A DNA stretch of 64,000 bases. Origin: Rubrobacter taiwanensis. GTDB lineage: Bacteria; Actinomycetota; Rubrobacteria; Rubrobacterales; Rubrobacteraceae. Under the pieces are notes generated by a model that saw nothing but the letters and a program-made list of their open reading frames with translations, was not told where the DNA came from and made no database searches. The translations under genes and the position numbers were made by a program. Below, piece by piece: positions 28,024-51,866 of the stretch. The DNA is taken from contig NZ_SKBU01000015.1 of NCBI RefSeq assembly GCF_004337705.1, forward strand, positions 300,686 to 364,685, written 5' to 3'. How positions within the stretch are numbered: the stretch's first letter is position 1; each line of letters opens with the position of its first letter.

Positions 28024-28980
28024 ATGATCTCACCGCTTAAATACGAGCCACAGCCGGCCACCTCTCCCCTCTTCGGCCGCGACTGCCTGACGCTGGCTGA
28101 GTACACGCCGGAGGAGGTGTCGCTCATCCTGGACGAGGCCGCCCGGCTGAAGTCCCTGCGCAGGGCCGGGGCCCCGTTCCAGCCGCTGCGGGGCAAGACA
28201 CTGGCCATGATCTTCCAAAAGCCCTCCAACCGCACCCGGGTCTCGTTCGAGACCGGGATGTACCAGCTCGGCGGGCACGCCATCTTTCTAGGGCCGCAGG
28301 AGCTCCAGATGGGAGTAAGGGAGACGATCTCCGACACCGGCAGAACTCTCGCCCGGTACACCGACGCCATAATGGCCCGGGTCTTCGGTCACGAGGAGGT
28401 CGAGGAGCTGGCCGCAGCCGCCGAAGTCCCGGTCATCAACGGGCTCTCCGACACGCACCACCCCTGTCAGGCGCTCGCCGACCTGCTCACCATCCGGGAA
28501 GAATTCGGCTCGCCGGAGGGCGTGCGCGTGGCGTTCATCGGAGACGGCAACAACGTCGCCCACTCGCTAATGCTCGGCTGCGCCCTCACCGGCGCGGAGT
28601 TCGCTATCGCGCACCCGCCCGGCCACGCCCCGAGCCCGGAGGTAGTAGATCTGGCACACAGGCTCGGCGGCTCGCCTCACCTCACCGAAGACCCGTACGA
28701 AGCGGCCGCCGGAGCGCGTGCCGTCTACACCGACGTGTGGGCCAGCATGGGCCAGGAAGACGAGGCCGGGGAGCGCCGCAAGAAGTTCCTGCCCTACCAA
28801 GTCGACGAGGAGCTCATGAGCCGCGCCGCACCCGAGGCCATCTTCCTGCACTGCCTCCCCGCCCACCGCGAGGAAGAGGTGACCGCCGGAGTCATAGACG
28901 GCCCGCAGAGCCGCGTCTTCGACCAGGCCGAGAACAGGCTGCACGCCCAGAAGGCGCTGCTCTACCTGCTCCTGAGCTAA
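28024..28980 (+). CDS. argF: Ornithine carbamoyltransferase
   Basis: A 318-residue transcarbamylase. The carbamoyl-phosphate loop is PSNRTRVSFETGMYQLGG, then HPCQALADLLT, DVWASMGQEDE and the ornithine motif FLHCLPAHREEEV. It has AGGGAGGAAG before the ATG. The last 23 bases (28956-28978, coding LLYLLLS) recur exactly at 36301-36323, where they are followed by TGA instead of TAA. The present 3' end may have been supplied by an inserted element. Confidence 0.96.
   Translation: MISPLKYEPQPATSPLFGRDCLTLAEYTPEEVSLILDEAARLKSLRRAGAPFQPLRGKTLAMIFQKPSNRTRVSFETGMYQLGGHAIFLGPQELQMGVRETISDTGRTLARYTDAIMARVFGHEEVEELAAAAEVPVINGLSDTHHPCQALADLLTIREEFGSPEGVRVAFIGDGNNVAHSLMLGCALTGAEFAIAHPPGHAPSPEVVDLAHRLGGSPHLTEDPYEAAAGARAVYTDVWASMGQEDEAGERRKKFLPYQVDEELMSRAAPEAIFLHCLPAHREEEVTAGVIDGPQSRVFDQAENRLHAQKALLYLLLS
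28956..28978 (+). repeat. 23-bp direct repeat, left copy (3' end of argF)
   Basis: Begins GCTGCTCTACCTGCTCCTGA and ends GCT. It codes for the end of ArgF and is followed by AA, completing TAA. An exact second copy lies at 36301-36323. Flanking bases differ (GAAGGC before this copy; TTCAAT before the other), so identity stops exactly at the repeat. This is a candidate attachment site. Confidence 0.9.
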
Positions 28981-29008
28981 AGCGGGAACCTACCGCAGAC
29001 TCTTTACT

Positions 29009-31264
29009 CTACATCACCCTATCCCCCGGCTCGGTCTCGGCCAGCAGGTGGAGCATTCGACCATCTGCCAGAGCCCGTTGCTCCGCCCCTAGCCACAAAG
29101 CTCGCGGTGGGCTGTTGCCCCAGGGTGGGCGATTCAGCCCCTCGTAACGGTCGAACACTACCGGCTGCCGGGCTCGCTGGCGCGCCGTGGTGCTCAACTC
29201 GGCAATTCCTAACCGGTCTCCCATCTCCAGAAGGAACTCGAAGACGTGCTCACCCTGATCCGTGTACCAGTCGCGCCCAGCATAGACTTCCGGGTCCGCG
29301 CCTCCCCAGGCCATCTTTGGGCTGCGCAACAGAGTCCACTGCCAGCTCTCTCCGTCCAGGCTCAGGCTGTAGGCGTCGTGGGTCACCACGGCCAGCTGTT
29401 TGCCCCCTGCATCTACAAGGGACCAGCCTTGCACCGGCCACTCCACCGGGCCCGGCATACGCTTCACATACCCGCTGCCAGAGCCATCAATCCAAGCTGC
29501 CGGGGCCGCCGCCAGCCGCACTGGCATTTGAAGTATCTTGAACCTCTCATTGAAGTTGACCTCTAACTGTACCAGCAGCCGGGGTTCGCTTCTGTACAGG
29601 GTCAGCGTCCAGCGGAACGGCGAATCTCCAAGCCGGCTCTCCAGGCGGACACGGGCTCTCAGGGGACCTTGTTCTTCGACCACCCATTCCCCGCCCGAGA
29701 AGGTCTTGGCGATCGGCTCGACAAAACGATCCGTGTGGAAGGTCCAGGTATCCGTGTGGTCGTGGCGCAGGTGTAGGCTGACACCTCCATCACCCAGCAA
29801 TTCCTTCCCGTCGAACACGATGCTGGCGATACCGTAGTCGGATAGTCTTACTTCAAGGTGCCGGTTGGAGAGCCTCCGCGGCGACACCTCCAGGTCTGTG
29901 GTGACCGGATGCTCGGGTCGGGGATCGTCGCGCACTAGGACCAGATGATGTCCTCTGGCTTGCACGCAAGCAGGAAAAACAATCCGATTCACCATCTGCG
30001 GAGCCTCAGGCTGGACGAGTTGGAAATCTACTGGGTTGCCGTCCAGATCGCTCAACCAGCGGCCACCCCAGGCATCGAAGTCGAGAAACGGCTCCGTCTC
30101 GATAAAGCCCTCCCACGGCACCGGATCGGGATTCAGGATTGCTATCTGTTGCTGGTTAACTTGGGGCAGGTTCCGGCGCGCCCAGCGCCGGGTGGCCTCC
30201 AGAACAATCTCCTCGCCTGTTATCCTGGCCCGACCCTGGATCGCCCTTACCGACTCCCAAGCTGAAGGAATGGAGGTTCCCGCCAGGATATCGTGAAACT
30301 GGGTAAACAGCAGGTCGTTCCAGGCGGCATCGAGCCGTTCGTGGTACTCTCGCCTCTCCGGTCCGTCTTCGACCAGGGTCTCTATCACCTGCTCGCATTG
30401 GGCAAGGAGGTGCTCGCTGTATACCTGGCGCTGCTTTATATCATGCATGACGCTGTAGCAGCCGGGGAAGCAGTGTTGCAGCTCCCCTACCACCACCGGC
30501 AGTTTTTCACGCTGCTCCGCGACGGCTTCGAAGAAAGCCAGGGGAGTGCTGAATCTAAGCTCGATCCCTGGCAGAGCGTTCTTGTGTTCGAGAATGTACT
30601 CGACGTTGCCCTTTGTCGGACCTCCACCGTGGTTCCCTACCCCGTAGAAGCACATCGTATGGCCGAGGTTCGGGTCGGCTGCCTCTACGGAGAGCATGAT
30701 CTGGCCATAGAGATCGTCCGTGTGGGTGACGTAGTTGGGTACTATCCGGCACGCCAGCACCTCCCCCCCACCAGCGCCCCTCCAGCGGAAAGTCTGGGCC
30801 GGCAGTTCCATCTGGTGCGCTCCCGGGCGGTGGAAGACGTAGCCGATGTATCCGAAACCCTCCAGGATGTCGGGCAGGGCAGCTGGATGGCCGAAGGTAT
30901 CCACGTTGTAGCCAACGTTCGGTGTGATGCCGAATCGTTCTTGAAAGTAGCGCTGGCCGTGCAGGATCTGTCGCTGCCAGCCGGTCACCGTGGGCAGGTT
31001 GGCATCCGGCTGGATGTACTGTCCGCCTGTGATATGCCACTGACCGCGCTCTATCAGCTGCCGCACTCGCTCGAAGAGCTCGGGGTCGATCTTCTCGACC
31101 TGCCGGTAGAGCCAAGCTTCTCCGCGAGTAAAGATGAACTCCGGGTACTCATCGCAGCGATCCACTGCCGAACGGAATGTCGCCAGCGCTTCGTCCACAC
31201 CCTGCTGCCAGCGCCAGAGCCATACGGGATCTATATGCGCGTTACCTATCATGTGCACGATCAC
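29009..31264 (-). CDS. Glycoside hydrolase family 38 alpha-mannosidase
   Basis: A 751-residue cytoplasmic enzyme without signal peptide. The zinc-binding HxD pair is H10/D12 in NAHIDPVWLWRWQQG, the catalytic nucleophile is D122 in GYNVDTFGHPAAL, and the zinc-binding histidine near HDILAGTSIPSAW completes the site. Middle and C-terminal beta domains follow (FDGKELLGDGGVSLHLRHD ... NRPPWGNSPPRALWLG). It probably hydrolyses alpha-mannosides imported by the neighbouring ABC transporter. The start is a GTG at 31264, six bases after GGGAGGG. The upstream regulator reads the other way. Confidence 0.92.
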   Translation of the reverse strand: MIVHMIGNAHIDPVWLWRWQQGVDEALATFRSAVDRCDEYPEFIFTRGEAWLYRQVEKIDPELFERVRQLIERGQWHITGGQYIQPDANLPTVTGWQRQILHGQRYFQERFGITPNVGYNVDTFGHPAALPDILEGFGYIGYVFHRPGAHQMELPAQTFRWRGAGGGEVLACRIVPNYVTHTDDLYGQIMLSVEAADPNLGHTMCFYGVGNHGGGPTKGNVEYILEHKNALPGIELRFSTPLAFFEAVAEQREKLPVVVGELQHCFPGCYSVMHDIKQRQVYSEHLLAQCEQVIETLVEDGPERREYHERLDAAWNDLLFTQFHDILAGTSIPSAWESVRAIQGRARITGEEIVLEATRRWARRNLPQVNQQQIAILNPDPVPWEGFIETEPFLDFDAWGGRWLSDLDGNPVDFQLVQPEAPQMVNRIVFPACVQARGHHLVLVRDDPRPEHPVTTDLEVSPRRLSNRHLEVRLSDYGIASIVFDGKELLGDGGVSLHLRHDHTDTWTFHTDRFVEPIAKTFSGGEWVVEEQGPLRARVRLESRLGDSPFRWTLTLYRSEPRLLVQLEVNFNERFKILQMPVRLAAAPAAWIDGSGSGYVKRMPGPVEWPVQGWSLVDAGGKQLAVVTHDAYSLSLDGESWQWTLLRSPKMAWGGADPEVYAGRDWYTDQGEHVFEFLLEMGDRLGIAELSTTARQRARQPVVFDRYEGLNRPPWGNSPPRALWLGAEQRALADGRMLHLLAETEPGDRVM

Positions 31265-31319
31265 AAAAATCCCTCCCGACTAGAATTTGCCCATCCCTCT
31301 TGTGCAGAGACCCCTGCCG

Positions 31320-32216
31320 TTACTTCACGCTCCCCAGAGAGATGCCTTCGATGAAGAACCTCTGGAAGGCCAGGAAGATCACCACCACGGGCAGGACCAC
31401 TAGGGTTGATGCTGCCATAAGCAAGTTGAACTCCACGTCATAAAGCGAGCGGAAGAACTGCAGCCCGATCGCTAGCGTGTACATGCTCTCGTCCTGCAGA
31501 TAGATCAGCGGTCCCAGAAAATCGTTCCAGGCAGTCACCGCAGCAAAGATCGCCACCACCGCGATGGCGGGCTTGCAGAGCGGTAGAATGATCCAGACGA
31601 AGATCTGGAATTCGTTCGCTCCGTCCACCCTTGCTGCATCTGAGATCTCGTGCGGTATCTGCATCATGAACTGGCGCATCAGGAAGATCCAGAACGCATT
31701 ACCGAAGAACATCGGCACGATTAGTGGCAGGAACGTGTTCACCCACCCCAGCCGGGCAAAGATGTCGAACAAGGCGACCATAAGCACCGGAAACGGAATG
31801 AAGATGGTTGCGATAACGAAGTAGAAGACGGTGTCGCGCCCCGGCCACTCGATGCGGGAGAACCCGTAGGCGATGATTGGGTTAGAGATCACCGCACCCA
31901 GCACGGTAAAGAAGGTGATTATCGAGGTGTTCGCCAGATACCTCCAGAACGGAATAAAGTTGACGGCCTCCGAGAAGTTGGACCACCGGAACTGCTCGGG
32001 CCACAGGGTCGGCGGGAATGTGGTGAGCTCAGCAGTCGGCTTCAGGGCGGTTACCACCATCCAGTACAGCGGGGTTACAAAGAGCAGGCACATGAAGATC
32101 AGGACGAGCCTGGGCAAGACTTTCTCTCTGAACCAGCGGTAGTGTCGCTGGCGCCGGGCTTGCCGGTGCCGAACATCATCGGGTCTTTTGAAGGCGCTAA
32201 CGGCTTTAGCGGCCAT
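31320..32216 (-). CDS. Sugar ABC transporter permease, MalG type
   Basis: A 298-residue inner-membrane permease of the carbohydrate uptake-1 family, with six predicted helices starting LPRLVLIFMCLLFVTPLYWMVV. The cytoplasmic EAA loop reads EISDAARVDGANEFQIFVWI, and it contacts the ATPase. No ATPase gene lies in the cluster, so a shared multi-sugar ATPase elsewhere is presumed. AGGAGGAG precedes the ATG. The gene lies 12 bases after its MalF-like partner. Confidence 0.92.
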   Translation of the reverse strand: MAAKAVSAFKRPDDVRHRQARRQRHYRWFREKVLPRLVLIFMCLLFVTPLYWMVVTALKPTAELTTFPPTLWPEQFRWSNFSEAVNFIPFWRYLANTSIITFFTVLGAVISNPIIAYGFSRIEWPGRDTVFYFVIATIFIPFPVLMVALFDIFARLGWVNTFLPLIVPMFFGNAFWIFLMRQFMMQIPHEISDAARVDGANEFQIFVWIILPLCKPAIAVVAIFAAVTAWNDFLGPLIYLQDESMYTLAIGLQFFRSLYDVEFNLLMAASTLVVLPVVVIFLAFQRFFIEGISLGSVK

Positions 32217-32228
32217 CTCGAGCTCCTC

Positions 32229-33170
32229 CTAACTCAACTCGTAATGAACCCAGCGCCTGGACCACCGGAACACGAGCATGGCGAGAATCAGGCTTATAAC
32301 GAACAGAACCCAGGCCATCGCCGACGCGTAGCCCATCTGGCTGTACTGGAAGCCGTTCTGGTAGAGGTAGTACACGTAGAACAGCGTGGAGTTGTTGGGC
32401 CCGCCCTCGGTCATTATGTAGGCCTGAACGAACACCTGCAGGCCCAGCGTCAGTCCCAGTATTACGGAGTACAGGATCACCGGCGTCATCAGCGGTAGGG
32501 TTATGTGCCAGAACTGACGCCAGACTCCTGCGCCGTCGAGCTTCGCGGCGTCGTAGAGATCCCGGGGGATCGCCCGGAGCCCGGCGAGGTAGATCAGGGC
32601 GACCTGCCCCGCTCCCAACTGGGCCAGCAATACGATGGAGAACTTGGCCCAAGCGGGATCGCCCAGCCAGTTGATGGACGGGAGCCCCAACTGTACGAGG
32701 ATGAAGTTCAGGAGCCCGTACCGGGGGTTCATCAGCCAGACGAAGATGAACGCCAGGGCGAATATGGGGAGCACCGACGGCAGATAGAGGATGGTCCGGT
32801 AGATCGAGACCTCCCGCACCGGCTGGTTCATCGCCAGCGCGATTATCATGGAGGCCACAACCCCCATCGGCACCGCCAGAGCCGTGTAGTACAGAGTGTT
32901 GTACAGCGACTGCCAGAACAGACCGTCGCCGAGCAGGGTCCTGTAGTTCTCCAGACCAATCCAGATAGGCTCACCAAAGCCGCTGTACCGGCTAAAACTC
33001 AGCCGCAGGGAGACGTAGATGGGATAGACCATGAAGGCCAGAAAGCCGAAGATCCACGGGCTTATAAACGCCAGCCCCAGCAAGAGGTTGCGCCGCTCCT
33101 TCCGGCTCAGGTTGAGCCTGAACCGTTTCGCCAGCCCACTTCTGGCAGGAACGTACTCCGACGCGCTCAT
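32229..33170 (-). CDS. Sugar ABC transporter permease, MalF type
   Basis: A 313-residue permease with six helices (LLLGLAFISPWIFGFLAFMVY at the N-terminus) and the EAA loop DLYDAAKLDGAGVWRQFWHI. It pairs with the MalG-type permease encoded next and the lipoprotein upstream to import an oligosaccharide or glycoside, by cluster context an alpha-mannoside. GGAAGG precedes the ATG. Confidence 0.92.
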   Translation of the reverse strand: MSASEYVPARSGLAKRFRLNLSRKERRNLLLGLAFISPWIFGFLAFMVYPIYVSLRLSFSRYSGFGEPIWIGLENYRTLLGDGLFWQSLYNTLYYTALAVPMGVVASMIIALAMNQPVREVSIYRTILYLPSVLPIFALAFIFVWLMNPRYGLLNFILVQLGLPSINWLGDPAWAKFSIVLLAQLGAGQVALIYLAGLRAIPRDLYDAAKLDGAGVWRQFWHITLPLMTPVILYSVILGLTLGLQVFVQAYIMTEGGPNNSTLFYVYYLYQNGFQYSQMGYASAMAWVLFVISLILAMLVFRWSRRWVHYELS

Positions 33171-33224
33171 AACACTCTACCTTCCACACATGCTCCCCTC
33201 ATGCCCTTTCTCGCCTCTGTTACA

Positions 33225-34616
33225 TCATCCCACCTCCAGGGGGCAGAATTGTTCCAGCCTAGGCTGCACCCGGTTGGCGACGCTCTCCAGAGCAGCCTCT
33301 GGGTGCTGGCGGTTCAACGTAACCGCCTCCTGGGCTGCGGTCAGCTCGTCCCAATACTGGGCTCCCACGGGAAGCGGCGGCCGGTTATTTGATATGGGCA
33401 GCAGCTCCTTGAGAAAGATGTGGCTCTCGGCGTAGATCTCGTCCTCGTCCAGCAACCGCTCCAGCGTCGGCAGGTGCTGGGTCTCTCGGACGTAGACTCG
33501 CTGGCCTTCTTCTCCAGCCATGTACTCCATGAAGCGGTAGGCTGCTTCAGGCTGTTCTGCGCCTTCCGGAATGACAAGCGCCCATCCTCCGGACCAGGTG
33601 GCTGGCTCCTGGCCTTCCTCCGGCACCGGGATGTAGGTGATCCCGTAATCAAGATCCGGCGCGTACCGATCTATGAGGGAAATAAACGCGTCGACACCGA
33701 CCATCATCGCGACCCGGCCAGTTATGAGCGGGTGTTGGGAGGGCGGGTTGTCCGGTGGTACGTAGGTGTCTACGAACGCCTGGACCCTGGCGGGATCCTT
33801 CTCCTCGGCCCAGTCGTACATGAACCGGAATCCCTCGACCACTCCCGGATGCGTCGGCGTTACCTCGCAGCTTTGCGGGTCGAAGAACTCGCCGCCATAG
33901 ACGAACCCCCAGGTATAGTGCCAGCCCTGATCTATCCAGGGCACCATTCCCATCCGGGTGTACGCACCGCTGTTATCGGTCTCGTCGACCCGAGCGGCTA
34001 TCTCATTGAGACGCTCGATGGTTATGAGTCCGTTACCGGGATCCAGCTCCGCCGGGTCCACGCCCGCCTCCTCCAGGAGATCCTTCCGGTAGAACAGAGC
34101 GCGCACGTCGGTATCGAACGGCAGAGCATACGGCCTGCCATCGAACATCACCTCGCTCCAGGCGAACTCCAGATACTGGTCCGCAAGACCCTCCTCCATA
34201 AACCCGCCGAGGTCCTGCAGAACACCGTCAGCCGCCCGCTGGGCCACAGTGAAGCGGTCGAGGAGATACACGTCGGGACCGACGCCGCCGCGCACGGCCG
34301 TCATGAGCTTGGCCGTATCGGTCTCATCCCCCGGCACCCGAACCATCGTAACCCGGATGTCTGGGTTCTCTTCATTAAAGCTCTCGACTATGCCAGTTAT
34401 GGATTCGGTATCCACTTCATTGAAGATCGACGGTATCCAGAAGACTACCTCCTCGGCATCAGGGTCTCCTTCACCCCCGGTGAGAACCTCGCCTCCCTCC
34501 GGGACCGCTTCCTCTCCCCTGTCCCCGCCACCACCGCAGGCAACCAGAAGCAAGGTCATCGCCAACATCGCCGGCAGGACTATCCACAGAATGTTTCCTC
34601 TTACCTCACGCATCAT
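33225..34616 (-). CDS. Sugar ABC transporter substrate-binding lipoprotein
   Basis: A 463-residue extracellular solute-binding protein (family 1). The signal peptide ILWIVLPAMLAMTLLLVACGGGG ends in the lipobox LVAC with Cys27, the lipid anchor. A glycine/glutamate-rich linker follows, then the two-lobed binding domain (VVFWIPSIFNEVDTES, RGGVGPDVYLLDRF, PDLDYGITYIPVPEE). It is the first gene of the minus-strand transport-mannosidase unit and so likely the most strongly expressed. GGGAGGAGGAAAT lies before the ATG. Confidence 0.92.
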   Translation of the reverse strand: MMREVRGNILWIVLPAMLAMTLLLVACGGGGDRGEEAVPEGGEVLTGGEGDPDAEEVVFWIPSIFNEVDTESITGIVESFNEENPDIRVTMVRVPGDETDTAKLMTAVRGGVGPDVYLLDRFTVAQRAADGVLQDLGGFMEEGLADQYLEFAWSEVMFDGRPYALPFDTDVRALFYRKDLLEEAGVDPAELDPGNGLITIERLNEIAARVDETDNSGAYTRMGMVPWIDQGWHYTWGFVYGGEFFDPQSCEVTPTHPGVVEGFRFMYDWAEEKDPARVQAFVDTYVPPDNPPSQHPLITGRVAMMVGVDAFISLIDRYAPDLDYGITYIPVPEEGQEPATWSGGWALVIPEGAEQPEAAYRFMEYMAGEEGQRVYVRETQHLPTLERLLDEDEIYAESHIFLKELLPISNNRPPLPVGAQYWDELTAAQEAVTLNRQHPEAALESVANRVQPRLEQFCPLEVG

Positions 34617-35122
34617 GATTTCCTCCCTCCCCGTCAGGCAGATCTATACTTGCAAATGTGATACATACATCTGGTGGCTTGGCGCTCTGTTCGACCCGGC
34701 CCCTCCTCTCCACTACTTGTCCTTCTGGCAGGTGGCGGTGCATCTCTCTGACCACTCCCCTGCGCTTGAGAGACGCAATGCAGTGCAGATGCGGATAAAC
34801 CCGCACCCTCCGGTAGATGAGAAGGTGTGTCGCCAAAAGTTCCCGGGCGAACCAGGGCAGCCTGCTGCAACCGGCCTGCTCCTGCGAGCGCGGCCATGGC
34901 CCTGTCCATCGTAGAAAAGTGCAGTGGTCGATCCTGCCCACTCTCCTCACCCCTGCGCGTGCCGCTTCCCCCCGATTGCCGCCTATTCTACGTCTGACTA
35001 GTTTAATGTGTCAATACATTAAATATTCAAGATCTGTACCGTATAAATAAAAGGATATTGATGTGCTATTTTCCGCCAGTTAAACTTAGGGTGGAGAAGA
35101 AACCGACCGCATAGAGGGGAAC
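34617..35122. promoter_or_regulatory. Divergent regulatory region of the mannoside cluster
   Basis: About 500 bases without a convincing gene. At 35002-35023 TTTAATGT and ACATTAAA form a perfect 8-base inverted repeat spaced by six, a strong operator candidate for the adjacent regulator. A looser similar site, AAATGTGATACAT, lies near 34654-34666 just before the binding-protein gene. TATAAA at about 35041 may be the -10 of the regulator gene. One minus-strand frame spans 34606-34950 but has no family resemblance and overlaps the lipoprotein start, so I do not call it. Confidence 0.6.
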
Positions 35123-36268
35123 GTGTCCGAGGTTCCGGTTCCACAGTACCATAGAGTCAAGCAAGCGCTGCTCCGGGAGATAGAGAGTTCCGATTACGCT
35201 CCGGATGAGCCGTTCATCACCACGCGCGAGGTCTGCAGCCGTTTTGGAGTGAGCACCACCACCGCCGTGCGCGCTCTTGATGATCTCGTACGGGAAGGCG
35301 TACTGGTTCGGAAACGGGGGCGCGGTACGTTCGTCACTGACAAACGGCAAGTGCGAGAGAGCATCCCGAGCCGCAACACCAGAACGTTGGGCTGTATCTT
35401 CAGTGGGCTCCAGGGCCGGCATATGTCGGAGATGCTCAGTGGAATCGAATCCGTTTGCAGGGAAGCTGGGTATCGCGTACTGCTCTTCGACTCGGCCGAG
35501 TCGGCTGAGAAGGAAGCACACAACCTGCAGCGGGCACTCGACGCCGAAGTCAGCGGCCTGATCGTGTGTCCAGTTGATGGCTACTCCAATTCCACTCACT
35601 TCAACAAACTGCTCGAGCGGGGGCTGCCGCTAGTCATGGTCGACCGCTATTACCCCGGTCTGGTAACCGACGTGGTGGTGCCGGACAACTTCGCGATCGG
35701 CTATCAGCTAACAGACTACCTGATCGGCAAGGGACACCGCTACATCGCCACTCTTTGGGGAGATACCCAGTGTACAAGTGTGCAGGATCGCCTGTCCGGA
35801 TACCGGCGGGCCCTACAAGAGCACGGACTTCCTATCATTCCCGAGCTGGCGGCTCTAATCTCATACGAGAAGCTGCCGGAGAGAAAGCGCAGCGAACTTC
35901 TGCAATCGTGGCTGGAAGCGCCCCACCGTCCATCCGCTTTCCTCTGTGTGAACGGCTACGTGATGGCGCTCCTGGTTAAAGACTTGATCCACCTCGGAGT
36001 AAACTTGTCTGAGGAAGAAGCGGTTCTCGCCGGGATGGACGATGTAGGTCCCCACGATCTCCTGCCGTTTGCCACGATTGCCGCTGTTTTGCCCTCGTAT
36101 GAGATGGGCAGCAAGGCCATGCATTTGCTGCTCGATCATATCGAGCGTGGAGAAGAAACCCGGCATATCCTTCGCCACATTGTGCTGCCAATCGATGTAT
36201 CTATAAAGGATTTGAAGCCTGTTCACCTGCAGGCCAGAGCAGCGAAGGGTGCCCGAGCGGATCATTGA
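35123..36268 (+). CDS. GntR/LacI-type transcriptional regulator of the mannoside cluster
   Basis: A 381-residue AraR-like protein: an N-terminal GntR winged helix (YHRVKQALLREIES, FITTREVCSRFGVSTTTAVRALDDLVREGVL) joined to a periplasmic-binding-type effector domain (TLGCIFSGLQGRHMSEMLSGIES ... AGMDDVGPHDLLPFATIAAVLPSYEMG). It should sense the imported sugar or a product and act at the palindrome 100 bases upstream. The GTG start at 35123 follows AGAGGGGA. It is the last gene inside the putative argF island. Confidence 0.9.
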   Translation: MSEVPVPQYHRVKQALLREIESSDYAPDEPFITTREVCSRFGVSTTTAVRALDDLVREGVLVRKRGRGTFVTDKRQVRESIPSRNTRTLGCIFSGLQGRHMSEMLSGIESVCREAGYRVLLFDSAESAEKEAHNLQRALDAEVSGLIVCPVDGYSNSTHFNKLLERGLPLVMVDRYYPGLVTDVVVPDNFAIGYQLTDYLIGKGHRYIATLWGDTQCTSVQDRLSGYRRALQEHGLPIIPELAALISYEKLPERKRSELLQSWLEAPHRPSAFLCVNGYVMALLVKDLIHLGVNLSEEEAVLAGMDDVGPHDLLPFATIAAVLPSYEMGSKAMHLLLDHIERGEETRHILRHIVLPIDVSIKDLKPVHLQARAAKGARADH

Positions 36269-36300
36269 TCCAGGACGGCCGGGCTCTCGTCAGGTTCAAT

Positions 36301-36323
36301 GCTGCTCTACCTGCTCCTGAGCT
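36301..36323 (+). repeat. 23-bp direct repeat, right copy (displaced end of argF)
   Basis: Exact copy of 28956-28978. It is followed by GA, so an ArgF reading frame would end LLYLLLS with TGA. A hairpin shared with the opposite gene lies directly after it. Nothing upstream of this copy continues the argF frame. Confidence 0.9.
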
Positions 36324-36360
36324 GAAAAAAGAGAGGCCCGGCGGATGGGGGACCGGGCCT
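36324..36360 (-). terminator. Terminator of the small gene at 36384 (possibly bidirectional)
   Basis: AGGCCCGG (36334-36341) and CCGGGCCT (36353-36360) form a stem. On the minus strand it is followed by TCTCTTTTTT. Before the island was inserted it would also have stood directly behind argF. Confidence 0.8.
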
Positions 36361-36383
36361 CCCAGGGTGTGGGACAGGCGAAA

Positions 36384-36581
36384 CTAAGCGGTGTCGCCCG
36401 GAGAGCCTATCCGCCGGGCGAAGACGTCGCAGGACTCCGGCCTGAGCTCCCAGTAGTAGAGGATGAGGCAATCGCCGGCACCGTCCAGCGAAACCCTCTC
36501 CCCCAACCGGGGCGGAACCTCCTCAAACCTGCGCCCGAGCTGCTCCCCAGTCTCAGCGTCTCTGTAATGCACCGCAACCAT
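36384..36581 (-). CDS. Small protein of unknown function (65 aa)
   Basis: I do not recognise this protein. AAGGAGG lies eight bases before the ATG, one of the clearest ribosome sites in the window, and an intrinsic terminator follows, so it is very likely expressed. The sequence begins MVAVHYRDAETGEQLGRRFEE and contains a central hydrophobic-aromatic strand CLILYYWELRP; it looks like a small beta-rich soluble protein. The intergenic DNA upstream carries ATAGAT-AAC-ATCTAT (36670-36684), a possible regulatory dyad. Confidence 0.65.
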   Translation of the reverse strand: MVAVHYRDAETGEQLGRRFEEVPPRLGERVSLDGAGDCLILYYWELRPESCDVFARRIGSPGDTA

Positions 36582-50359: not shown

Positions 50360-51508
50360 ATGGCGAGAAAACGCGGCAACGGGGAGGGCTCGATCTACAA
50401 ACACCGCCGCAATGGGAAGGTTGTGGGCTACCGGGGAGCCTATTTCGTCTACACGGCGGACGGCCCGAAGCGCCGCTATGTTAATGGCAAGGATCGTGAG
50501 GAAGTACGCCAGAAGCTAACGAAGGCCATGGCTGACCGCGACAGCGGTATCGTGGTAGATGACAAAAATCTCAGCGTTGGAGAGTACTTAGACCGCTGGC
50601 TCTTTGACTGCGTACGCGGCACAGTAAGAGAGTCCACGTTCTCAAGAGATGGGTACTTGATTCGAAACCACATCAAGCCCGCGCTCGGAAGAATCCGGTT
50701 GAAGAACCTGAACGCCCTCCACCTCCAGGGCTTCTACCGGGGCCGCTTGGACTCCGGGCTTTCCGGCTCGACGGTACAGAAGATACACCACGTTTTACAC
50801 AAGGGCCTCGCCCAGGCCGTGAAGTGGGATCTAATACCCCGTAACCCGGCGGATGCCGTTAAGGCTCCCAGCCCCTCGAAGAAGGAGATGCACCCTCTCT
50901 CCGCAGACGAGGCCCGGCGACTGCTTGAAGCTGCCCGGGGAGATAGGTTTGAAGCTCTCTATGTCCTGGCTGTCTATACAGGCATGAGGTGCGGGGAGTT
51001 GCTGGGTCTGAAGTGGGAGGATATAGATCTCGATAACCACACGATCAGGGTTCGCCGCACGCTCACCCGGACGGAGAATGGCAAGAAGCTCAGCCTCGGA
51101 GAGCCGAAGACGAAGAAGAGCCGCCGCACGGTGAAGCTCTATGCAAGAGTCGTAGAAGTTCTCAAGCGACACCGGGCACGCCAGGCAGAAGAAAAGCTGA
51201 AGTCCGGCAGCCTCTACCGGGACCAGAACCTAGTCTTCGCCGGAGAGAATGGCGGGCTCATCAACCCCTCCAACCTCCGCCAGCGGTCCTTCCTTCCCTT
51301 GCTCAGGCGTGCCGGGCTGCCTCAGATACGCTTCCACGACCTCCGGCATACCTGTGCGTCCCTGCTCTTCCAGAGGAACGTCCACCCCAAGTTCGTTCAG
51401 GAGTTGCTTGGTCACGCCTCTGTCGCCATCACGCTCGACACCTACAGCCACATGCTGCCCGGCATGGGCGGCGAGGTCGCTGACACGATGGGAGAAGCCC
51501 TCGGTTAG
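50360..51508 (+). CDS. Tyrosine recombinase (phage/ICE-type integrase)
   Basis: A 382-residue integrase: an N-terminal arm-binding domain (GNGEGSIYKHRRNGKVVGYRG), a core-binding domain (LSVGEYLDRWL...HHVLHKGLAQAVKWDLI) and a catalytic domain with Arg210 (TGMRCGELLGL), Lys near 253, His326 and Arg329 (HDLRH), His352 (LLGHAS) and the nucleophile Tyr362 (TYSHML). All catalytic residues are present, so it may be active. AAGGAGGAATAAGG precedes the ATG. It lies 100 bases from tRNA-Val, the usual place for an integrase beside its attachment site. Confidence 0.95.
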   Translation: MARKRGNGEGSIYKHRRNGKVVGYRGAYFVYTADGPKRRYVNGKDREEVRQKLTKAMADRDSGIVVDDKNLSVGEYLDRWLFDCVRGTVRESTFSRDGYLIRNHIKPALGRIRLKNLNALHLQGFYRGRLDSGLSGSTVQKIHHVLHKGLAQAVKWDLIPRNPADAVKAPSPSKKEMHPLSADEARRLLEAARGDRFEALYVLAVYTGMRCGELLGLKWEDIDLDNHTIRVRRTLTRTENGKKLSLGEPKTKKSRRTVKLYARVVEVLKRHRARQAEEKLKSGSLYRDQNLVFAGENGGLINPSNLRQRSFLPLLRRAGLPQIRFHDLRHTCASLLFQRNVHPKFVQELLGHASVAITLDTYSHMLPGMGGEVADTMGEALG

Positions 51509-51602: not shown

Positions 51603-51606
51603 AAAG

Positions 51607-51678
51607 TGGGCGATGCTGGACTCGAACCAGCGACCCCCTCCTTGTAAGGGAGGTGCTCTCCCGCTGAGCTAATCGCCC
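51607..51678 (-). tRNA. tRNA-Val (anticodon TAC)
   Basis: Acceptor GGGCGAT/ATCGCCC, discriminator A, anticodon arm CCTCCCTTACAAGGAGG with TAC, T-arm GCTGGTTCGAGTCCAGC. No CCA encoded. It is the first gene next to the integrase and so the likely attachment target. Confidence 0.97.
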
Positions 51679-51681
51679 GCG

Positions 51682-51754
51682 TGCCCCCAACGGGATTCGA
51701 ACCCGTGCCGCCGCCTTGAAAGGGCGGTGTCCTAGGCCTCTAGACGATGGGGGC
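51682..51754 (-). tRNA. tRNA-Glu (anticodon TTC)
   Basis: Acceptor GCCCCCA/TGGGGGC, discriminator A, anticodon arm CGCCCTTTCAAGGCG with TTC, T-arm ACGGGTTCGAATCCCGT. Separated from tRNA-Val by three bases; both were surely cut from one transcript. Confidence 0.97.
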
Positions 51755-51794
51755 CTGTCGCCGGAGACCCCGATGTCATCCCGAGATCTCCCAG

Positions 51795-51866
51795 TGAGCC
51801 GGGTAGGGATCGAACCTACGACACGAGGATTAAAAGTCCCCTGCTCTACCACTGAGCTACCGGCCC
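51795..51866 (-). tRNA. tRNA-Lys (anticodon TTT)
   Basis: Acceptor GGGCCGG/CCGGCTC (one G-U), discriminator A, anticodon arm GGGGACTTTTAATCCTC with TTT, T-arm GTAGGTTCGATCCCTAC. First gene of the Lys-Glu-Val tRNA cluster. Confidence 0.97.

Follow-up and report, generated by a model that had tools for sequence, protein, structure and literature searches.

Overall organization of the argF locus

The window, the whole 64,000-nucleotide stretch of Rubrobacter taiwanensis DNA analysed here, contains an arginine operon that ends in argF, a 7.3-kb island of sugar-utilisation genes, and a small gene that faces the operon (Table 1).

Table 1. Features of the argF 3' end and the adjoining island, in window coordinates.
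Feature	Position	Strand	Basis or remark
argF, ornithine carbamoyltransferase, intact, last gene of argJ-argB-argD-argF	28024..28980	+	ORF; 70-77% identical to Rubrobacteraceae argF
Left 23-bp repeat copy, now the argF-attached end (stop TAA)	28956..28978	+	sequence; genome search
GH38 alpha-mannosidase	29009..31264	-	PF01074, PF09261, PF07748; 67-68% family homologs at other loci
ABC sugar permease 2	31320..32216	-	PF00528
ABC sugar permease 1	32229..33170	-	PF00528
Extracellular sugar-binding lipoprotein	33225..34616	-	PF01547; best family match 32% or less
Probable promoter of the operon, TTGACA-18-TAGAAT; palindrome TTTAATGTGTCAATACATTAAA (35002-35023) overlaps it as a candidate operator	34985..35023	-	sequence; predicted function
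Regulator with GntR N-terminal domain and LacI-type sensor, divergent from operon	35123..36268	+	PF00392, PF00532, PF13377
Right 23-bp repeat copy, probable displaced original argF end (then GA, giving TGA)	36301..36323	+	sequence; alignment to relatives
Hairpin, A-run to its left; ancestral terminator from behind argF, in the orientation of the convergent minus-strand gene	36333..36361	.	sequence; G003 alignment
Small conserved gene MVAVHY..., ancestral argF neighbour, no Pfam match	36384..36581	-	directly behind argF in six relatives

The ends of the island are marked by a direct repeat. The 23-mer GCTGCTCTACCTGCTCCTGAGCT is present in two copies, which are exact, as a sequence-only reading of this DNA had claimed. 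The left copy is followed by AA, which gives the argF stop codon TAA, and the right copy by GA, which gives TGA; both copies encode LLYLLLS. The 23-mer is the longest exact direct repeat found in a scan of the 64-kb window. In the 3.04-Mb genome there are no copies besides these two, rather than many in unrelated places, and none was found in the viral contig collection searched. Matches with two or three mismatches in relatives are mostly argF ends themselves. Outside the 23 bp, no similarity is found on either side of the two copies, where alignment scores equal those of shuffled controls.

Other short repeats lie near the joints. AGAGCAGC (36236-36243) and GCTGCTCT (36301-36308) form a perfect 8-bp inverted repeat that spans the right joint, and the tRNA-like words GGTGCCCGAGCGG and GGTTCAAT are located between these arms. 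ARAGORN calls no tRNA in this stretch. An imperfect 16-bp inverted repeat (29035-29050 and 36223-36238) is located ~60 bp inside both island ends, within coding sequence; its shuffle fraction is 0.018, and it is possibly due to chance.

Empty sites in relatives

The minus-strand MVAVHY gene is positioned directly 3' of argF in G001, G003, G008, G013, G019, and G022 (relatives are denoted by G numbers). When the flanks of the island are rejoined (28896-28978 to 36324 onward), the resulting sequence aligns over its full length with the loci of G001, G003, G008, and G019. Orthologous empty sites are thus present in other genera of Rubrobacteraceae. Because the rejoined flanks match these sites, the 7.3 kb between the two copies is an insertion at the argF 3' end, and we regard its reality as nearly certain. 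By synteny, we infer that the right copy is the original gene end and that, in the window, it was displaced to the far side of the island. The sequence-only reading had proposed both the insertion and this displacement; the empty sites, together with other insertions at the same position in relatives (see below), bear it out.

The hairpin behind the right copy had been taken as the sequence that originally stood behind argF. The same A-run and hairpin are located directly behind argF of G003, so the hairpin is indeed ancestral argF-downstream sequence. Its orientation has to be amended. The A-run is on the argF side and corresponds to a T-run on the minus strand; therefore, the hairpin is in the orientation of a terminator for the convergent gene.

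Mannoside cargo of the island

Pfam identifies GH38 domains, the genes of a sugar ABC importer, and a regulator within the island, which agrees with the earlier assignment of the cargo to mannoside import, hydrolysis, and regulation, and together they make up a GH38 mannoside utilisation operon with mannoside as the predicted substrate. An ABC ATPase gene is absent from the importer gene set. The module would import mannose-containing oligosaccharides via the ABC importer, whose ATPase would be encoded at another locus, and the GH38 enzyme would cleave them. The operon promoter is near-consensus, and TTTAATGTGTCAATACATTAAA has perfect 8-bp arms and overlaps the -35 hexamer. The palindrome is a plausible operator for the GntR/LacI-type regulator, which would repress the module by binding over the promoter.

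The family homologs of the mannosidase sit at unrelated loci in four genomes, and a search of the family found no close homolog of the sugar-binding protein. The island genes have a GC content of 0.56-0.61, compared with 0.67-0.71 across the arg operon and 0.65-0.73 at 37-40 kb, consistent with the lower island GC noted before. The stretch at 43-52 kb is as low in GC as the island but belongs to a different element.

Search for mobility genes

Pfam identifies no integrase, transposase, replication, or mobilisation gene in the island, which had been described as lacking an integrase, and its 0.5-kb non-coding gap contains no recognisable ORF. No tyrosine recombinase was found in the island or near argF in the nine genomes checked, and no integrase beside argF is among the matches listed for 40 genomes. 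A search of the R. taiwanensis genome found no large serine recombinase. The cargo genes are intact and lie 30 and 32 bp away from the two repeat copies, which leaves no room for an end-located integrase that was later lost.

PF00589 genes exist elsewhere in the genome. The nearest (50360-51508) encodes a tyrosine integrase and ends ~100 bp from a tRNA-Val gene, with tRNAs at 51606-51866. The integrase probably serves another element. The low-GC stretch around it (~43-51.6 kb) contains methylase and transposase-like remnants and has the appearance of an independent tRNA-associated element; the scan of the 64-kb window found no direct repeat of at least 20 bp at its far end.

Recurrent insertion at the argF 3' end

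Across Rubrobacteraceae, inserts have landed repeatedly behind argF. At this position, other genomes of the family have type III restriction-modification islands that include HigBA or VapBC, and in several of them the far end of the insert bears a decayed argF tail. The restriction-modification island is directly behind argF in G027, G018, G005, and G007 (Res and Mod were called by Pfam and PADLOC in G027, and by homology in the other three). In G009, argF is followed by VapBC and then a Res gene; in G023, by VapBC and one further gene; in other genomes, by still other genes. Further relatives have no insert, and argF is directly beside the usual neighbour of the clade, which is a desaturase, a small gene before the desaturase, a cold-shock gene, or the MVAVHY gene. 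The occupation of the site is therefore patchy.

Remnants of the resident gene vary in length across the family. The argF-tail relic is 23 nt in R. taiwanensis, 63 nt in G007, ~75 nt in G009, and ~111 nt in G027 and G018, and the G009 relic has a deletion relative to that of G018. Many insertions at the argF 3' end leave no relic. In light of the differing lengths and the missing relics, we rejected a single att core at argF across the family.

The relics of G027, G018, and G009 were considered as independent tail duplications. This was rejected, since G018 and G009 share one homologous VapBC-argF-tail unit (L032 8790-9760 and L041 2600-3480). The unit is positioned on opposite sides of the restriction-modification island in the two genomes, indicating stacking or shuffling. 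The G027 and G018 relics begin at the same point, which suggests a common origin. Because of the shared unit and the like starts, the independent relic events are few. A search for argF tails in ~300 genomes of the phylum returned mainly paralogous carbamoyltransferases, with no clear short relics outside the family, among the matches listed.

Origin of the relic tails

Identity between G027 and G033 is 89-95% for argD, argF, csd, and mdh. The G027 desaturase beside the relic tail is 92% identical to that of G002 and only 84% identical to that of G033, and the best matches to the relic tail are in G005 and G002. The tail and the desaturase, both G002-like amid G033-like genes, thus form a foreign chromosome block, and the restriction-modification genes most likely came with it. 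The possibility that the G027 relic is the displaced end of the host's own argF was rejected on this comparison of neighbours.

Extra desaturase copies preceded by decayed argF tails are also present away from argF (L033, G002:C62; L173 and L174, G063:C258 and C297). These argF-tail and desaturase pieces look as if they had been inserted at other loci with arbitrary ends. The relic patterns are better explained by chromosomal recombination that makes both homologous and illegitimate joints than by the action of a single site-specific recombinase.

Possible mechanisms of insertion

We favour homology-anchored illegitimate recombination over an integrase that acted in trans or was lost. For the statement as a whole, horizontal acquisition of the module at the junction of argF and its neighbour by this mechanism, together with the proposed import, cleavage, and repression, we estimate a probability of about 0.5. 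The 7.3-kb mannoside module would have been acquired between argF and the convergent small gene. On one side, incoming chromosomal DNA would pair within the conserved argF; on the other side, a non-homologous joint would happen to fall 23 nt before the resident argF end. The incoming DNA would supply the argF end that is now attached (the last 23 nt, with TAA), and the resident end (23 nt, with TGA) would move to the far side as a relic.

This mechanism is supported by the uniqueness of the repeat with nothing similar beyond it, the empty site, the foreign composition, and the absence of mobility genes from an island whose cargo is flush with its ends. It is also supported by the variable or absent relics in relatives, the chromosomal exchange in G027, and the tails moved in G002 and G063; import of a chromosomal block is seen in G027 only. 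Joining by one homologous and one illegitimate end is an established process in competent bacteria (PMC3240628). The same process has been put forward to explain stacks of displaced gene ends at Vibrio T6SS loci (PMC5361080). ComEC homologs are also present, a finding that is permissive only.

Homology-facilitated illegitimate recombination is rare, which counts against the favoured mechanism. So does the exact 23-bp identity with nothing beyond it, which has the look of an att core too. Illegitimate joints have been reported with 3-10 bp of microhomology (PMC3240628), which is judged against a donor sequence, and a donor with the order argF-TAA-GH38 was not found. No boundary of a foreign tract is visible inside argF in a comparison with relatives that are only 70-77% identical at the protein level.

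Site-specific integration, as the sequence-only reading had it, is a possible but doubtful explanation. The repeats would be attL and attR, the tyrosine recombinase would have acted in trans or been lost from the interior, and an attP mimicking the argF end would have restored the gene. Such an event is consistent with an exact 23-bp repeat at a gene end, a reading frame restored with a stop codon, an empty site in relatives, PF00589 genes elsewhere in the genome, and several unrelated cargos at the same gene end across the family. It is at odds with the results for tyrosine and large serine recombinases given above, with cargo genes flush with both ends, and with relics in relatives that are without the 23-bp core; moreover, viral contigs, phages, and plasmids were searched for an argF-end mimic and none was found. 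Of the earlier proposal, the insertion and the displaced gene end are supported. Site-specific integration as such is not: an integrase is absent from the island, a lost end-located one has no room, and the core is not common to the site's other insertions.

It is unlikely, in our estimate, that the modules stacking at argF (restriction-modification, VapBC, and mannoside) form an integrase-less, cassette-like family, in which each would carry its own argF tail as a joining site and be moved by a recombinase in trans or by homologous recombination from tail to tail. Still less probable is a small circle that carried a short argF-end sequence and entered the chromosome by one homologous crossover within it. 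The same footprint would be expected, and the VapBC-argF-tail unit, found on one side of the restriction-modification island in G018 and on the other in G009, would fit a cassette with its own homology arm; however, RecA-dependent recombination would have only a very short homology of 23 bp to act on, genes for replication or mobilisation are missing from the island, and a plasmid with such an argF tail was not found. Transposition with a 23-bp target-site duplication is very improbable: an exact repeat does flank the insert directly, and a stop codon would follow the left copy by chance in about one case in five, but there is no transposase, the tips have no terminal inverted repeats (only the imperfect 16-bp one further inside), and 23 bp exceeds the usual target duplications.

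Significance and comparison with known systems

At this locus, the end of a housekeeping gene repeatedly takes up small modules for sugar use, restriction-modification, or toxin-antitoxin functions, with its protein intact and with no visible integrase. We regard it as a clean local case of horizontal acquisition at a family-wide insertion hotspot, not as a demonstrated new mechanism. A literature search found no report of argF serving as an attachment site. Given sister strains, the entry of integrase-free islands into these actinobacterial chromosomes could be followed at this locus.

The closest likeness is to the effector-immunity arrays of Vibrio T6SS and to Rhs loci (PMC5361080, PMC3240628), where a conserved gene serves as the anchor for an incoming module, the resident 3' end stays behind downstream, and stacks build up through repeated events. 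In contrast, the anchor here is a housekeeping arginine gene that still encodes the same protein, and the cargo has no relation to this anchor; the joints and the donor are putative.

Islands placed by tyrosine recombinases in the 3' ends of protein genes (TIGER/Islander, PMC12424338) likewise have a direct repeat of the target at both ends, a restored gene and reading frame, and empty sites, all of which are found at argF. Unlike them, the argF island has no integrase, shares no core with the other insertions at its site, and carries only metabolic cargo.

Defence hotspots between core genes of Pseudomonas aeruginosa resemble the argF site in that a fixed core-gene junction holds defence or toxin-antitoxin cargo that varies by genome (PMC10250203). 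Compared with the hotspots covered there, the R. taiwanensis site holds a sugar-use operon, positioned at the end of the Rubrobacteraceae arg operon.
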